IMG/VR virus record: IMGVR_UViG_3300011116_000569
Coordinates: 1-39,095 of that record
DNA from: a virus
Strand: one strand, 5' to 3'
DNA length: 39,095 nucleotides
Both the position numbers and the translations under genes were made by a program. The notes under the pieces were generated by a model that did not search any database, was not told the origin of the DNA, and saw nothing but the letters and a program-made list of their open reading frames with translations. Shown one piece after another: positions 192-37,164 of this stretch (positions are counted from its first letter, which is position 1; each line of letters begins with the position of its first letter).

Positions 192-1825
192 TGCGCAAAA
201 CGGCGCTACTCGGCACGAAAAAGAAACAGGTTGCGGTCGGACGGTCTATTCCGTTCCCTATCGAGGGATGGGATACCGTCTCGCCTATTTCTGAAATGTC
301 GCCAAAGCGCGCCCTGATTATGGATAATTTCATCCCGCGTCAGGCGTGGGGTGAATTGCGCAGGGGATGGGCGTCTCACTCGCCTACAGGTGGGACCGGA
401 CCTGTCGAAACTATTATGGCTTATCAGGCCAACAATGCCACCAATGACGCCTTGTTTGCCATAGCATCGGACGGAACGGGCGTATCAAATATCTATGACG
501 TGACCAACACCGTTTCGACGGTTGTGGTGGCGGGTCTGGATAACTCCCGGTTTCAGCACGTCAATTTCACCACGACCGGCGGACATTTCCTTTATGCCGT
601 CAACGGCTCCGACGATCCGCAAATCTGGAACGGGACCGCATGGTCTAATCCGACCATTACGGGCGCAGCGGCGCGGGATTTTGTCGGGATCAACGTCTTC
701 AAAAAGCGCCTGTTTTTCTGCGCGAATGGTAAGATAGGCTTCTATTATCTCCCCATAGACAGCATTCAGGGCGCGGCCTCCTATTACGAACTTGGCAACG
801 TGTTCTCAATGGGCGGCTACCTGATGGCGATGGGAACATGGACCATCGACGGCGGGTCCGGCGTTGACGACCACGCGGTGTTTTATTCGTCGCGCGGTCA
901 AGTGGCGGTGTTTCAGGGAACGGACCCCGGCGATGCTACGGCGTGGAAGCTGGTCGGCGTGTTCAATATGCCGTCGCCGCTCGGTCGGCGCTGCATGTGC
1001 AAGGTCGGAGGCGATCTGTATCTGGTGAGCGTGTCCGGCGTCCTGCCATTGTCGCGCTCGCTGATCCTCGACATTGCCGCTGTCAACAATGTGGCGATTA
1101 CCCAAAACATCTCGCCCACAATGACCACGAGTGCGCAGCTTTATGGCGAGAACTTCGGCTGGCAGCTAATCGGCTATCCGAGAGGCACGCTGGCAATCCT
1201 GAACGTCCCTGTAACGGAAAGCGAACTGTCCTACCAGTACGTTATGAATACCCTGTCCGGCGCTTGGTGTCGATTTGTCGGCCAAAACGCGACATGTTGG
1301 GAATTGTTCAATGATCGGCTTTTCTTTGGGGCGGCTGACGGGCTGGTATGCGAAGCGGACGTTGCGGCGTCTGACGGCGGTGTCGCCATCACAGGCGACC
1401 TCAAGACGGCGTTCAACTATTTCGGGATGCGGGGCTATCAAAAACGCTTTCCGATGCTGCGCCCGCTCATCACGTCCGACAACCGTATCCAGCCCCAGAT
1501 CATTCTGAACGTCGATTTTCAGGACGTTGTACCGACCGGCGCGGTTCCTACCAACACAAACTCCGCAATTTACTGGAACCAGTTTAACTGGAACGCCGCA
1601 TATTGGCCGCCGTCAGAAACGACCTCTAGCAATTGGGTTTCCGTCTCCGGCATCGGCTATTGCGCGGCGGTTCGGCTTCGGGCAACGGCTTCGATTTCCG
1701 GCCTTGATGGCGTTTGGGACATTGGAACCTGGGACCAGACCTTGTGGGATACGGGCGAGAGTACGCCGGTCGTGCTCAAGATCAACGGTTTTGACATCAC
1801 CATGGAACCGGGCGGATTCATTTGA
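191..1825 (+). CDS. Putative structural tail/connector protein, beta-rich (544 aa)
   Basis: The 544-residue protein is rich in Gly, Ser, Thr and aromatic residues, with repeated strand-like blocks and many WN and WD pairs toward the C terminus (around residues 455-530). It has no signal peptide or membrane segment. It sits directly after the adaptor gene and before the ejection proteins, the place where short-tailed phages encode tail-tube or DNA-stabilising connector proteins (P22 gp10 or T7 gp12 type). That role is inferred from position and composition; I see no diagnostic motif. The ATG overlaps the previous stop by one base, and the end overlaps the next start by four bases, so it is part of a coupled operon. 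Confidence 0.6.
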   Translation: MRKTALLGTKKKQVAVGRSIPFPIEGWDTVSPISEMSPKRALIMDNFIPRQAWGELRRGWASHSPTGGTGPVETIMAYQANNATNDALFAIASDGTGVSNIYDVTNTVSTVVVAGLDNSRFQHVNFTTTGGHFLYAVNGSDDPQIWNGTAWSNPTITGAAARDFVGINVFKKRLFFCANGKIGFYYLPIDSIQGAASYYELGNVFSMGGYLMAMGTWTIDGGSGVDDHAVFYSSRGQVAVFQGTDPGDATAWKLVGVFNMPSPLGRRCMCKVGGDLYLVSVSGVLPLSRSLILDIAAVNNVAITQNISPTMTTSAQLYGENFGWQLIGYPRGTLAILNVPVTESELSYQYVMNTLSGAWCRFVGQNATCWELFNDRLFFGAADGLVCEADVAASDGGVAITGDLKTAFNYFGMRGYQKRFPMLRPLITSDNRIQPQIILNVDFQDVVPTGAVPTNTNSAIYWNQFNWNAAYWPPSETTSSNWVSVSGIGYCAAVRLRATASISGLDGVWDIGTWDQTLWDTGESTPVVLKINGFDITMEPGGFI

Positions 1826-2250
1826 GAATTGTTCTGGGCTCCGACGAAAAGGTGGCCGCGTGGGCTTCCGAACGGCTTGGGATTGCGCCGATGATCGGCC
1901 CTCTCACGGCTATCGGGGTGATCGACAGCGAGGGTTCCATCCACGGGGCCATGGTGTTTACGAATTACAATCAGTCCAACATTGACGCAACGGTCGTCGG
2001 CTTCCGTTGTTTCACAAGAAACATTATCCGGGCGGCGGCGGACTATTGCTTCAATCAGCTTAAATGCAATCGCGTGACGTTTCGGACGAAGCGTAAGAAC
2101 AAGGCGGCTTGTCGGATACTTGCCAAGCACATCGGGCCGAACGGGTTCGAGGGCGTGGCAAAATCCTATTACGGGCGGGACAAGAAAGATGACGCAATCA
2201 TTTATCGCCTAGATCGCAACGGCGCGGTCAAGTGGTGTGGAGAGTTCTAA
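1822..2250 (+). CDS. GNAT-like acetyltransferase in the virion module (142 aa)
   Basis: The length and layout fit a small GNAT fold: an N-terminal strand, a central strand segment with AMVFTNYN (residues 43-50), then a helix with R-N-I-I-R (66-70) near the acetyl-CoA loop position, and a late segment with K/R-rich turns. Similar small acetyltransferase-like genes occur in structural operons of many alphaproteobacterial phages. The start is TTG at 1822-1824, overlapping the upstream TGA; no ATG occurs before residue 24, which would remove the first strand. The target is unknown, perhaps a virion or host protein. Family assignment is by pattern only. Confidence 0.6.
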   Translation: MRIVLGSDEKVAAWASERLGIAPMIGPLTAIGVIDSEGSIHGAMVFTNYNQSNIDATVVGFRCFTRNIIRAAADYCFNQLKCNRVTFRTKRKNKAACRILAKHIGPNGFEGVAKSYYGRDKKDDAIIYRLDRNGAVKWCGEF

Positions 2251-3221
2251 TGGAAGCCCCTGCCTATCCGACGCCCCCAGATCCGGCCCAGACCGCGGCG
2301 GCACAAACGCAGTCGAACAAAGAGACGGCTGTAGCCAATGCGAACCTGAACCGAATCGACCAGTTCACTCCGCAGGGTAATACGACCTATCAGGTCACGG
2401 GCACGAATGCGGACGGGACGCCAAAATACCGTCAGGACACGTCATTCTCGCCCGGCGAGCAGCAGGTTTATAACACCAATCTGCAAGCCCGCCAGAACAT
2501 CGGGCAGATCGGCGCGGATCAGTCTCAGCGCATCGGCGGGCTTCTCTCGACGCCGTTCGACATCAATTCGGCGGCGCAGGACCAGTTTTCCGACATTGCC
2601 CGCAAGCGCCTTGATCCGCTTTGGAATCAGCGCATGGAGGCCAAAAAGACGGAACTGATGAATGCGGGCGTGACGCCGGGAACGGATGCCTATGACCGGG
2701 CCATGGGCAATCTGGATCAGTCTCGTAACGACGCCTACAATTCCATGTTCTTGCAGGGACGCGGGCAGGCGGTCAACGAGGCCATGAGCCAGCGCAACCA
2801 GCCGATTAACGAGATTTCCGCGCTTATGTCGGGATCTCAGGTCAGCAACCCTGCGGCTCCGGGCTTCCAGCCGGTCGGAATGGCGAACACCGATGTGGCT
2901 GGCATCATCAACAATGGCTACGGGCAGCAAATGCAGTACGCCAAAGCGCAAAACGACGCCAGCAACGCCACAATGAACGGTTTGTTTAGTTTGGGGGGAA
3001 CTGCGGCGCAAGCAGCGATGATGTGGTCGGATCGACGCCTGAAAACGAACATCCAGCGCATCGGGCGGGCTGACAATGGCCTCCCAATCTATTCATACCG
3101 CTACGTCTGGGGCGGCCCTGTGCAGATCGGCTTCATGGCGCAAGACGTTGAAAAGGTCAGGCCTGACGCGGTGCATGAGTTCGGCGGATTCAAGGCCGTT
3201 GACTACGAGAGGGCTGTTTAA
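2250..3221 (+). CDS. Virion/ejection-type protein ending in an S74 intramolecular chaperone domain (323 aa)
   Basis: The N-terminal 255 residues are Gln/Asn/Ala-rich and helical, like internal virion proteins. The last 65 residues match the peptidase S74 (intramolecular chaperone) family: WSDRRLK at 259-265, then YSYRY and IGFMAQDVEKV. In known members cleavage occurs just before the serine of the SDRRLK motif, here Ser260. I start at ATG 2250, which overlaps the previous stop by one base; a GTG 18 bases upstream lies inside the acetyltransferase gene. S74 domains usually end trimeric fibres or spikes, so a fusion to a helical, ejection-like body is unusual. It lies next to two other ejection candidates. 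Confidence 0.75.
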   Translation: MEAPAYPTPPDPAQTAAAQTQSNKETAVANANLNRIDQFTPQGNTTYQVTGTNADGTPKYRQDTSFSPGEQQVYNTNLQARQNIGQIGADQSQRIGGLLSTPFDINSAAQDQFSDIARKRLDPLWNQRMEAKKTELMNAGVTPGTDAYDRAMGNLDQSRNDAYNSMFLQGRGQAVNEAMSQRNQPINEISALMSGSQVSNPAAPGFQPVGMANTDVAGIINNGYGQQMQYAKAQNDASNATMNGLFSLGGTAAQAAMMWSDRRLKTNIQRIGRADNGLPIYSYRYVWGGPVQIGFMAQDVEKVRPDAVHEFGGFKAVDYERAV

Positions 3222-5191
3222 TGGCCGTCGGTTTTTTTGACACTGAAACAATCGACCCGGCTGCGCCCATGACGCCGCAGGCTATCGAGCGCAAGCGTCG
3301 TATGGCCGAACTGCTGATGAAGCAGGGTTCATCTGACGCGCCTATCCAATCATGGACGCAAGGCGCTGCAAATGTCGCCAAATCTTTGCTTGGCGCGTAC
3401 CAAATGAAAAATGTTGATTCAACCGAAGCCGCTGGTCAAAAGGCCGCCGCATCACAGAATGAACAATTAGTTCGGATGCTTTTGGGCGACACTGGCGGCG
3501 GTGATAGTTCTGCGGGAATGGCTGGCGCATCCCCCGGAATGGACCCAAGTTCGCCCGGTTCTGGCGCTTCTGGTGAATATAAAAAGGTCGTGGCTCAAAT
3601 CGAGTCTGGCGGCAACCCAAATGCACGGAACAAGGATTCTGGCGCGGCGGGCATGTATCAATTCATCCCATCCACATGGAAGGCCTATGCGCCCGCGCCT
3701 GGGGCCAGCCCCTATGACCCGCAGGCCGCAAATCAAGCTTTTGAGCGGTTCACGACCGACAACCGAAACAGCCTTGCGAAGTCTATCGGGCGCACGCCTA
3801 ACGATGCCGAAATGTACCTAGCGCATCAACAGGGCGCAGGCGGGGCGTCAAAGCTCCTAAGCAACCCGAATGCCCGTGCGGCTGATCTGGTAGGGGAACG
3901 CGCTGTCGTGTTGAACGGTGGGCGGCCCGACATGACGGCTGGCGAGTTTGCTAATCTCTGGACCGGAAAATACAATAAGTTTGCCGGAATGCCGTCTATG
4001 ACGGGTTCGCCTATGCCTTCGATGAGCGGTGCGCAACCTACGCAAACCGCATCCGTTACTGACCGGATCACAGGCCGACAAGTTCCGGTAAACCCCGACG
4101 GCACGGCGGCGGATATATTCAACCCGGAAACTGGCCAGCCCGGCGCTATGGCGTTTGCAGGTTCGCAGGGCGGCCAAGGCCCCGGACTGGCGGCAATCAA
4201 TCAGGCGGCCCCTCAAGGCCAGCCCATGCCCCTACAGGGCGCACAGGGCGGAATCCCGGCCCCGCGGGCAACTCCGAACATCGTCCGCGCTCTAGCGGCC
4301 ATAGCCTCCGACCCATGGCTTTCCGATAGCCAGAAGTCCATGGCGATGATGCTGGCGAAAGATCAGATCGCCAAGTCCAACCCGGAATACGGCTTTCAGG
4401 TTGTGGGCGATCAGCTTTATCGCACCGACAAGCGATCGGGGAATGCTGTCCCGATGGGCGTGTCTGCCGACAAGACGACCATGCAAGTCATCGGTCAGGA
4501 CGAGTACGGCAACAATATGTACGGGTTTGTTAACCCGGTCACAAAGCAGATCACGCCGGTTGCGCCACAGGGCACGGTTGCCGCTCAAATGCAGGGCCGT
4601 CAGCAGGCCCCGCAGCCACAGGCCGCACCGTCGCCCGATGGACAGCCCCCGCAGGCAGCGGCCCCGGCTGATGGCATCCCCCCGGCTCCTCCGGGCATCA
4701 ACCCGAAAATCTGGCGCGATGAAAAAACCCGCGAATTGGCGCGTGGCGAGAAGTTCACGGAATCGCAGGGGAAGGCCCTGACGTTCGGCAATCGCATGGA
4801 GAATTCGGAAGGCATCCTTCAATCGCTTGAAAACGAGGGTACCAGCCGCGCCAATCGTCTTGGTGCAAATATACCAATAATCGGCAATTCCGTTGTTTCG
4901 GAAGGCTTCCAGAAATTTCAGCAGGCCGAACGCGAATTTATTAACGCGCTTTTGCGCCGTGAATCCGGCGCGGTCATTGCCGACAGTGAATATAACAATT
5001 TCTCGAAACAGTATTTCCCGCAGCCCGGCGACAGCCCTGACGTGATTGCGCAGAAGCGCCAGTCCCGCAAGGTGGCGATTGACGCCATGAAGAAAGAGGC
5101 CGGCCCGAACTACAAGTCCCCTACGCCTGCCGCTTCGGCTGATGGCTGGCATGAGGTCGCGCCGGGCGTTCGGATTCGGGAGAAAAACTAA
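3221..5191 (+). CDS. Internal virion (ejection) protein with lytic transglycosylase domain (656 aa)
   Basis: Residues about 118-260 form a lysozyme-like SLT domain: the catalytic glutamate is Glu128 in QIESGGNPNARN, followed by GAAGMYQFIPSTW. This domain would cut peptidoglycan glycan strands locally during DNA entry. A Pro/Gln/Ala-rich linker follows (about 260-500). The C-terminal block (about 537-628), with AEREFINALLRRESGA and YFPQPGDSPDVI, is a conserved region I recognise from other phage internal virion proteins. The gene starts one base inside the previous stop (TAATG) and ends one base inside the next start. Together with its neighbours it probably builds the trans-envelope DNA conduit. 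Confidence 0.85.
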   Translation: MAVGFFDTETIDPAAPMTPQAIERKRRMAELLMKQGSSDAPIQSWTQGAANVAKSLLGAYQMKNVDSTEAAGQKAAASQNEQLVRMLLGDTGGGDSSAGMAGASPGMDPSSPGSGASGEYKKVVAQIESGGNPNARNKDSGAAGMYQFIPSTWKAYAPAPGASPYDPQAANQAFERFTTDNRNSLAKSIGRTPNDAEMYLAHQQGAGGASKLLSNPNARAADLVGERAVVLNGGRPDMTAGEFANLWTGKYNKFAGMPSMTGSPMPSMSGAQPTQTASVTDRITGRQVPVNPDGTAADIFNPETGQPGAMAFAGSQGGQGPGLAAINQAAPQGQPMPLQGAQGGIPAPRATPNIVRALAAIASDPWLSDSQKSMAMMLAKDQIAKSNPEYGFQVVGDQLYRTDKRSGNAVPMGVSADKTTMQVIGQDEYGNNMYGFVNPVTKQITPVAPQGTVAAQMQGRQQAPQPQAAPSPDGQPPQAAAPADGIPPAPPGINPKIWRDEKTRELARGEKFTESQGKALTFGNRMENSEGILQSLENEGTSRANRLGANIPIIGNSVVSEGFQKFQQAEREFINALLRRESGAVIADSEYNNFSKQYFPQPGDSPDVIAQKRQSRKVAIDAMKKEAGPNYKSPTPAASADGWHEVAPGVRIREKN

Positions 5192-12521: not shown

Positions 12522-12562
12522 ACCATATGCCCATTGACTTTGTTGTCAAGAACTTTTATCAT
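12522..12562. promoter_or_regulatory. Divergent sigma70-type promoters with -35 boxes in one palindrome
   Basis: Rightward: TTGACT at 12534-12539, 17-base spacer, TATCAT at 12557-12562. Leftward, on the complement: TTGACA at 12549-12544, 16-base spacer, TATGGT at 12527-12522. Both -35 boxes are arms of the palindrome TTGAC-N6-GTCAA (12534-12549), so one bound protein could block both or RNA polymerase could occupy only one at a time. The rightward start point would fall near 12569, three bases from the ATG at 12572, so that message may be leaderless. Confidence 0.6.
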
Positions 12563-34989: not shown

Positions 34990-36012
34990 ATGGCATCCCC
35001 CAATCTTTCGGAAATCGTCACCACGACCCTGCGCAATCGCAGCGGAAAACTCGCAGACAGCGTATCGCGTAACAACGCCGTACTGACCCGCCTCAATTCC
35101 AAGGGCAAAGTCAAGACGTTCGGCGGTGGTCGTACCATCGTGCAGGAAATCGAGTACGCCAACAACTCGACGTACAAGCGTTATTCGGGCTACGAAGTCC
35201 TGAACATCGCCCCGTCGGACGTGTTCACGGCGGCTGAATACCCGATCCGTCAGGCGGCTGTCGCCGTTTCCATGTCGGGTCTGGAAATGTTGCAGAACAG
35301 CGGCAAGGAAGCTGTGATCGACCTTCTCGAAGGCCGCATCCAGAACGCCGAGCGCACGTTCAAGAACGGCCTGTCCTACGATATTTATTCGGACGGCACG
35401 CAGACCGGACAGATCACCGGCTTGCAGGCGCTCATTTCGACCACGCCCACTTCCGGAACGGTCGGCGGCATCGACCGTGCGTCGTGGACCTTCTGGCAGA
35501 ACCAGAAATACTCGGCAGTCACGGATGGCGGCGCGGCTCTCTCCGCAGCCAACGTCTATGGCTACATGCTGGCGCTGTACCAGAAGCTCGTTCGCGGTTC
35601 AGATCGTCCTGACCTGATCGTGGCCGACAACGTGTCATGGGGCCTCTACAACCAGAGCCTCCACGCCATTCAGCGCATCACCAACGAGTCCACCGACGTG
35701 GGCAAGTCGGGCTTCCTGAACCTCAAGTTCATGGATTGCGACGTTGTGATGGACGGCGGCTATCAGGGCACCACCACTGACGGCAACACGTTCGGCACTG
35801 CCGGCGCGGGTGCGGTCGGCGGCGCTCCGGCCTCGACGATGTTCTTCATCAACTCCGATTACCTGTTCTTCCGGCCTCACCGTGACCGCAACATGGTCCC
35901 GCTGGACCCGGATCGGTTCTCGGTCAATCAGGACGCGATGGTCAAGCTCATGGGCTGGGCGGGCAACATGACCCTATCCAACGCATTTCTTCAGGGGGTT
36001 TTGACCACCTAA
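34990..36012 (+). CDS. Major capsid protein (340 aa)
   Basis: Length and composition suit an HK97-fold coat protein without long N-terminal scaffold: SPNLSEIVTTTLRNRS at the start, FTAAEYPIRQAAVAVSMSG (about 78-96), a helical spine (EAVIDLLEGRIQNAERTF) and a C-terminal FSVNQDAMVKLMGWAGNMTL. Flanked by the scaffold gene and, after an intervening homing endonuclease, by head proteins. AGGAG is upstream of the ATG. Codon use is cleaner than in neighbouring genes, as usual for a highly expressed protein. Confidence 0.88.
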   Translation: MASPNLSEIVTTTLRNRSGKLADSVSRNNAVLTRLNSKGKVKTFGGGRTIVQEIEYANNSTYKRYSGYEVLNIAPSDVFTAAEYPIRQAAVAVSMSGLEMLQNSGKEAVIDLLEGRIQNAERTFKNGLSYDIYSDGTQTGQITGLQALISTTPTSGTVGGIDRASWTFWQNQKYSAVTDGGAALSAANVYGYMLALYQKLVRGSDRPDLIVADNVSWGLYNQSLHAIQRITNESTDVGKSGFLNLKFMDCDVVMDGGYQGTTTDGNTFGTAGAGAVGGAPASTMFFINSDYLFFRPHRDRNMVPLDPDRFSVNQDAMVKLMGWAGNMTLSNAFLQGVLTT

Positions 36013-36021
36013 GATAATGTG

Positions 36022-36056
36022 TTATCATAGCCTCCTTCAATAGGAGGCTATGATGG
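36022..36056 (+). promoter_or_regulatory. Perfect hairpin hiding the SD and start codon of the homing endonuclease
   Basis: Bases 36024-36036 pair perfectly with 36042-36054 (13 Watson-Crick pairs, loop TCAAT at 36037-36041), extended by two G-U pairs. The 3' arm contains AGGAGG (36042-36047) and both possible ATG codons (36050 and 36053). In RNA from the capsid operon this structure would block ribosome access and so keep the nuclease low while capsid is made. It could also slow or end transcription, but no T-run follows. Confidence 0.8.
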
Positions 36057-36685
36057 TATCGACTAAGCTTGATCTAATAGGGCGTAAATTCGGGCGACTT
36101 TCCGTCTTAAACCGGGACTTCAACGAAAACCATCGCGTTCGGTACGTTTGCCAATGTGATTGTGGTGAGGTGTTTTCCGCTTTTCAGGCCAACTTGTTAA
36201 GCGGGAACACGACATCTTGTGGTTGCGCCAGAGTTAAGCACGGCATGTCGGGGACCAAGGTTTATAGCGTGTGGCGTCAAATGCGCCAAAGGTGTGAAAA
36301 CCCAAATGATGCGGCATACCAGAACTACGGTGGCCGAGGAATTAAGGTTGATGACCGATGGCAATCATTTGATATGTTCTTCGATGATATGGGAAGCCCG
36401 CCGCGTGGCTGGACCCTAGACCGCGTTAACAACGATGGGCCTTATTCTAAGGCAAATTGTAAATGGTCGTCGTGGAATGAGCAGGCTTCTAACCGTAGGT
36501 CTAATCGCGTCCTAAAAGCTTTTGGTCGAGTCCAAACAATTCAACAATGGGCGACGGAATACAATCTGCCGCTCTCGACCCTCAAAAATCGCATTGATCG
36601 AGCGCACCTAGAAATAGAAGCGGCGCTGACAATGCCAATCGCAAGGAATAAGCCATGTATATCGAAGGCATTAACCCGCTTCTGA
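36053..36685 (+). CDS. HNH-type homing endonuclease inserted in the capsid operon (210 aa)
   Basis: A Cys-rich N-terminal zinc module (YVCQCDCGEVF, then TTSCGCARVKHG) precedes KVYSVWRQMRQRCENP and NYGGRGIKVDDRWQSF, with DRVNNDGPYSKANCKWSSW, the pattern of phage free-standing HNH/AP2-like nucleases. It sits alone between the coat gene and the decoration gene, with codon use less biased than in its neighbours and its own 3' end overlapping the next gene by 31 bases, which supports a mobile insertion. ATG 36053 or 36050 may serve as start; both lie in a hairpin that hides the SD. Confidence 0.85.
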   Translation: MVSTKLDLIGRKFGRLSVLNRDFNENHRVRYVCQCDCGEVFSAFQANLLSGNTTSCGCARVKHGMSGTKVYSVWRQMRQRCENPNDAAYQNYGGRGIKVDDRWQSFDMFFDDMGSPPRGWTLDRVNNDGPYSKANCKWSSWNEQASNRRSNRVLKAFGRVQTIQQWATEYNLPLSTLKNRIDRAHLEIEAALTMPIARNKPCISKALTRF

Positions 36686-37164
36686 CCTACGCCATCACGA
36701 CGGCAACCCCGGAGCTTCCGGGCGCGCCGTTCGCGGTAGGCACGCGCGGTCTGGATAACACCGGCAAGGAATACGTCTTCTGCTCCAACACCACCACGGC
36801 GGCTCTCGTCGCTGGTGACGTTGTGCAGACGACCGCCGCCTATGCCGCATCGCAGATGACTACCACTGTCGGCGCTCGCGGAAATCCCGTGGGCGTTGTT
36901 CCTGTGGCGGTTTCGGCCAGCACTTCGACCATCACCTATTACTTCTGGGCTCAGGTGTACGGCATTTGCTCGGCCATCCACGTCCTTTCATCCTGTGCGG
37001 CTAACGTGCGCCTCAACACTGTGGCGACCGCTGCGGCTCTCGATGACGACGGTACGGCCAGCACCAAACAGGTGCAGGGCATTTACCTGACGACCGCCCG
37101 TGCGGCTTCGGAAGGCACTGCGGCTGGCATCCTGCGCTATCCGTTCGTTGACGCCACGCTCTAA
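36655..37164 (+). CDS. Head decoration protein candidate (169 aa)
   Basis: Ala/Thr/Val-rich, low-charge, beta-type protein (TATPELPGAPFAVGTRGLD, then SASTSTITYYFWAQVYGI) following the coat gene. Such proteins often bind the capsid surface or act as head fibres. AAGGAA is six bases before its ATG, inside the homing endonuclease gene, so its own expression was preserved after the insertion. A strong terminator lies after it. Confidence 0.6.
   Translation: MYIEGINPLLTYAITTATPELPGAPFAVGTRGLDNTGKEYVFCSNTTTAALVAGDVVQTTAAYAASQMTTTVGARGNPVGVVPVAVSASTSTITYYFWAQVYGICSAIHVLSSCAANVRLNTVATAAALDDDGTASTKQVQGIYLTTARAASEGTAAGILRYPFVDATL

Follow-up and report, generated by a model that had tools for sequence, protein, structure and literature searches.

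Control of homing endonuclease genes by an RNA hairpin combined with a promoter has been described for I-TevI, I-TevII, I-TevIII, segB and Aeh1 mobE (reviewed in PMC2988022). In I-TevI, I-TevII and I-TevIII of T4, the ribosome binding site is sequestered in a stable RNA structure when transcription comes from far upstream, and a promoter located just upstream of the gene produces an RNA that is devoid of the 5' part of this structure; the endonuclease-specific promoters of T4 are middle or late, never early (PMC2988022). The review also describes segB and Aeh1 mobE as free-standing genes in which a hairpin spans the ribosome binding site and a promoter is adjacent (PMC2988022; Gibb and Edgell 2009 as cited there). 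HNH genes are known to be present or absent beside essential genes, including the capsid gene (PMC10448857; Cluster J mycobacteriophages, PMC3706429), and the word 'hairpin' does not occur in the main text of either of these two papers.

Here we describe a locus in the window, defined as the complete 39,095-nucleotide viral record IMGVR_UViG_3300011116_000569, where the initial annotation had likened a hairpin at a nuclease start to the shielding of T4 nuclease genes. The likeness is apt, as the same logic is reported for all five systems above (PMC2988022). The hairpin-plus-promoter logic is known from T4 I-TevI, segB and Aeh1 mobE; new here are the setting, the recurrence and the predicted host-type promoter.

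A start-covering hairpin behind the capsid gene

The major capsid (head) protein gene (34990-36012, 340 aa; phrog_9953 major head protein, E 8.8e-110) is directly followed by an HNH-family endonuclease gene (36050-36685; phrog_374, E 2.7e-60), in agreement with the initial placement of the nuclease gene within the capsid operon. The next head-operon gene (36655-37164), preceded by AAGGA at 36643-36647, overlaps the nuclease 3' end by 31 nt. All three genes are on the + strand and the endonuclease is embedded in another transcription unit. The rest of the record is that of a tailed phage with portal, terminase, helicase, methyltransferase, Gam-like protein, fibres and amidase, and no phage RNA polymerase was seen among its scanned ORFs.

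The nuclease (211 aa from the ATG at 36050, 210 aa from the ATG at 36053) combines a zinc-ribbon-like Cys4 N-terminal part, a strand-strand-helix HNH-like core and C-terminal helices. Its AlphaFold model has a mean pLDDT of 90 and places the strand-strand-helix at residues 122-147. Additional PHROGs matches include phrog_3377 and others, and relatives are present in 1080 phage records. Since the protein matched nothing in Pfam, NCBIfam, PDB sequences or PDB folds, the HNH name rests on PHROGs, the motif and the predicted strand-strand-helix; a match to Pfam or to a solved structure is no strict requirement for membership in the HNH family.

At the junction of the two genes, an inverted-repeat search identified arms that are complementary at 13 of 13 positions, ATCATAGCCTCCT at 36024-36036 and AGGAGGCTATGAT at 36042-36054 (+ strand), separated by the 5-nt loop TCAAT (36037-36041), which is also found in the predicted fold. 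Outer G-U pairs (36022/36056 and 36023/36055) bring the total span to exactly 36022-36056. The 5' arm, recovered by both fold and inverted-repeat search, contains the anti-Shine-Dalgarno CCTCCT (36031-36036), and the 3' arm contains AGGAGG (36042-36047), the ATG at 36050-36052 and the AT of the ATG at 36053-36055. The perfect 13-bp stem enclosing AGGAGG and ATG that had been proposed earlier is thus borne out. The ATG at 36050 lies entirely within the stem, 2 nt from AGGAGG; the second ATG directly follows, is paired too and is located 5 nt from AGGAGG. This better Shine-Dalgarno spacing makes 36053 the likelier start.

The region 35990-36090 has a predicted folding energy of -32.0 kcal/mol compared to -22.4 (sd 3.2) for shuffled sequences, with none of 200 shuffles equally stable. 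This hairpin is the only perfect stem of at least 13 bp with a loop of 3-8 nt in the 39-kb record, and eight shuffles of the window yielded no such stem, even at 11 bp. Intrinsic terminators consist of a GC-rich stem and a T-run; no T-run is found 3' of the stem, and the hairpin is therefore not an intrinsic terminator. A search of the window against Rfam gave no match.

Recurrence of the hairpin among relatives

Scans with capsid proteins yielded 464 viral capsid loci with a stop codon, some of which are overlapping fetches of a single contig. Directly behind the capsid gene we found 14 distinct HNH genes, each preceded by its own leader, plus two shorter genes that start at the capsid stop. 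A fifteenth, near-blind case (L217) was pointed to by the hairpin ranking and the HNH tree; it is the sister of one clade, follows a distant homologue of the capsid gene (E 1e-79) and carries a hairpin together with TTGACA-16-tgaTATGGT. A hairpin locking the start is present in 15 of the 15 leader-type HNH genes behind homologous capsids.

For the first ten cases, pairing of the start region with the leader has a mean of 0.75 compared to 0.45 for shuffled leaders (sd 0.05, maximum 0.58 in 200 sets), and genes found after the capsid at other sites have a median start pairing of 0.20. Four held-out cases, found later and evaluated with the same rule, show a pairing of 0.74 versus 0.47, with 0 of 200 shuffle sets reaching it. 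Capsid-site genes have a mean z of 1.79, compared to -0.01 for HNH genes at other sites (n = 89; p 4e-7) and -0.15 for control genes (n = 300; p 2e-8). Pairing is thus kept in the relatives, including the held-out four, and the initial idea, which had been staked on such conservation, survives.

The hairpin sequences are mostly unrelated between capsid-site relatives. Where near relatives can be aligned, changes are paired and no pair is broken (one paired change in L201/L301, two in L538/L540). A chance palindrome without function would leave the 15 of 15 recurrence, the held-out confirmation and the paired substitutions unexplained, and we give it practically no credence.

The hairpin was also searched for before related nucleases as the initial annotation had suggested, with a positive outcome for the structure at the capsid site and a negative one for the literal sequence and for HNH genes elsewhere. 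The literal pattern AGCCTCCT-N3-15-AGGAGGCT gave at least 120 matches in viral contigs, mostly terminator-type repeats before other genes; among the matches listed, only the window has it before an HNH gene. The structure, rather than the sequence, is therefore what is conserved. There is likewise no excess of start hairpins across the whole HNH family, so that the hairpin does not characterise this nuclease family as such. The window protein matches phage HNH endonucleases of the phrog_374 type, whose relatives at other sites usually have no start hairpin.

In L201 (6000-6092), L301 (1180-1271), L169 and L397, leader pairing reaches deep into the coding region, as early HNH codons can pair with the -35 region of the promoter, resulting in near-palindromic leaders of 70-80 nt. 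In L013, L023, L048 and L116, AGCCTCCTTCTG...AGAAGGAGGCTTTT is found right before the start of another gene, apparently a different phage structural gene, and the 3' arm of these terminator-like hairpins also serves as Shine-Dalgarno.

The stem could instead be a 3'-end element of the capsid mRNA that protects, terminates or is processed, by RNase III for example, in which case the overlap with the nuclease start would be secondary. Some empty-site relatives do have GC-rich hairpins after the capsid gene, some of them with T-runs. But the stem in the window has no T-run, such a hairpin is missing from the closest empty relatives of the window, which mostly show a Shine-Dalgarno followed by the next gene, and across cases the position of the stem is set by the nuclease start, while its distance from the capsid stop varies (37-80 nt). 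We regard a 3'-end role as very improbable, and retain start sequestration as the reading of the structure.

A candidate promoter at the hairpin

A -35-like TTGACC (36001-36006, + strand) lies within the final capsid codons, and a -10-like TATCAT (36023-36028, + strand), preceded by TGT (36020-36022) as an extended TG, overlaps the 5' arm. Scored against the sigma70 consensus, TTGACC-16-TATCAT (36001-36028) is the best candidate on both strands of the record (13.4, the runner-up having 12.4); hosts may use other promoter consensus sequences. It resembles sigma70 promoters and not the late promoters of T4. Elsewhere in the window, strong sigma70-like promoters are found close to each other on opposite strands (12557 on +, 12527 on -), and 12527-12557 is perhaps the main phage regulatory region.

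Counting 7 nt from the end of the -10, transcription would start within 36034-36040 on the + strand. The best guess is 36036, where the 5' arm ends, and the zone spans the end of this arm and the loop. From the sequence scan, the promoter position in the window gives a predicted transcript without the 5' arm, and an RNA begun at the loop would free the Shine-Dalgarno.

To what extent is this arrangement shared? L201 has TTGACC-17-TATAAT at the same position as the window promoter. Averaged over the first ten cases, the promoters score 9.3 bits compared to 4.6 (sd 0.65; maximum 6.6 in 1000 shuffled sets). The held-out four have no consensus promoter (6.0 versus 5.0 bits, with 182 of 1000 shuffle sets equally good), and we no longer consider the promoter a general feature of capsid-site cassettes. 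The proposed transcript starting inside the stem accordingly finds its promoter in the window, but does not extend to these four.

The location of the start at the loop was also evaluated as evidence in its own right and set aside: it is found in 13 of 15 cases (P 1e-4 against a uniform null), but with a common window the count is 11 of 15 against about 50 % in hairpin-bearing controls. Because the geometry by itself discriminates weakly from these controls, only the joint test was used. A hairpin, a promoter score above 8 and a start at the loop occur together in 7 of the 15 cases; among control genes with a hairpin 1 of 137 combines them, and among HNH genes at other sites 0 of 16 (p 7e-8).

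We propose that the HNH gene and its leader form a mobile cassette, lodged behind the capsid stop codon and ahead of the next head gene, that carries its own switch. On the long late mRNA, the leader would cover the Shine-Dalgarno and the start codon, and the nuclease would hardly be translated when the capsid message peaks. From the sigma70-type promoter, located where the capsid gene ends, a short transcript would begin at the hairpin loop; this RNA would be devoid of the 5' arm, expose AGGAGG near its extreme 5' end and be translated. Nuclease expression would then follow the promoter of the cassette and not the late operon. Given a host-type promoter, expression would probably occur early after entry or in a lysogen.

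The predicted energetics are consistent with this proposal. On the long transcript a stable structure is predicted over the ribosome binding site, and opening the start would cost on average 16.5 kcal/mol on the long RNA compared to 3.2 on the short RNA for the ten cases. For the window the predicted costs are 20.8 kcal/mol and, for an RNA begun at the loop, about 3. Sequence, predicted fold, recurrence, promoter match and geometry form the computed basis of the switch. We infer from them the repression, the short transcript and its timing, as well as nuclease activity and homing.

We consider the complete switch, silent on the long capsid message and on from the short transcript, to be probable. 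Taken by parts, silencing of the nuclease by the leader on the capsid message is the most likely function and is well supported by the predicted structures; a short transcript of its own that permits nuclease expression is also most likely, with sequence support in the window and in roughly half of the cases. The hairpin might alternatively act as a silencer that only keeps the nuclease off the capsid message, with no working internal promoter, leaky initiation or degraded or processed RNA being sufficient for expression. Such a role would agree with a hairpin in 15 of 15 leader-type cases, a good promoter in about half and none in the held-out set. It fits poorly with the window promoter being the best of both strands and sited to free the Shine-Dalgarno, and with similar promoters in L201, L301, L136, L169 and the near-blind L217; in addition, promoters of another consensus may be in use in these hosts. 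We judge it unlikely, although less so than the other alternatives.

The inverted repeat over the -10 might also be a DNA operator bound by the nuclease or a phage regulator for autorepression, with RNA sequestration as a by-product. Repeat and promoter do overlap, in relatives as well as in the window, and I-TevI autorepresses at its operator (PMC2988022). However, repeat sequences differ widely among the HNH relatives, the stems contain G-U pairs, and in every case the 3' arm coincides with the Shine-Dalgarno/start, which an operator would not need. An operator is improbable, and the RNA switch remains our preferred reading.

The capsid site and comparison with known systems

Comparison with empty-site relatives, whose flanks are up to 92 percent identical, places the insertion just after the capsid stop. 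Occupied and empty versions of the same site are found in otherwise similar genomes, namely L301 and L307, L201 and L291, L136 and L168 (the occupied one first in each pair), and others. These sequence comparisons show that the leader and the nuclease gene arrived together as one cassette. By parsimony, the capsid-site HNHs occupy about five places on the HNH tree (five label changes, of which well-supported branches alone force at least two), and the design is therefore recurrent. That the lock returns, in versions of unrelated sequence, in 14 or more relatives points to a switch that selection has favoured repeatedly. Among cellular genomes, 0 of 79 capsid homologues are followed by an HNH gene.

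The two shorter HNH genes (L537:3532-3912 and L566:3520-3981) do not have the N-terminal zinc-ribbon part, and their ATG overlaps the capsid stop (ATGA). Neither a leader hairpin nor a promoter is found in them, and from the overlap they are apparently coupled to capsid translation, which indicates that late coupled expression can be tolerated. The overlap is similar to the other habit of T4, where the endonuclease AUG overlaps the upstream stop codon.

In some larger phage contigs (about 21-95 kb; L593, L602, L603 and L604, also L594 and L605, around 1000-4600), the same capsid gene is interrupted and divided into several parts; four of these contigs contain group I introns according to Rfam, and related HNH genes lie inside or nearby. 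The capsid gene seems to be a hot spot for homing elements. In the empty-site L291, L307, L357 and L178-L185, a GGGGC-loop-GCCCC hairpin, in some with a T-run, is often present between capsid and next gene. These hairpins are probably partial terminators and are missing from the occupied relatives compared.

It is conceivable that the 3' flank of this capsid gene family is a landing site taken several times by different HNH lineages, with the same loop-start switch selected each time. The nuclease would be made from a host-type RNA before the late programme, or in the prophage, and shut off by the capsid message, a timing opposite to that of T4 I-TevI. We advance this wider scenario tentatively and would not yet favor it.

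The few examples known so far of homing endonucleases controlled by a hairpin and an internal promoter are of the T4 type. The present cases add unrelated phages and several nuclease lineages, with hairpins that share no sequence, behind a gene that is normally among the most strongly expressed. How homing nucleases can be tolerated inside essential phage operons thereby becomes a testable question. The leader, of about 40-80 nt, is portable and predicts a clear on/off rule from transcript length.

The presence or absence of HNH genes next to essential genes is shared with the systems of PMC10448857 and PMC3706429. With segB and Aeh1 mobE the locus shares the free-standing endonuclease gene, but those genes belong to other nuclease families or hosts, are located in tRNA or nrd regions instead of behind the capsid, and have late promoters (predicted in the case of segB) where the promoter here is sigma70-like. 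With I-TevI, I-TevII and I-TevIII, the window shares a predicted structure covering the start and a promoter that drops its 5' part. Those three genes are intron-encoded, while the genes described here are free-standing HNH genes behind the capsid from several HNH lineages, and with a sigma70-like promoter in place of the T4 late promoter of I-TevI, the timing of expression is probably opposite.
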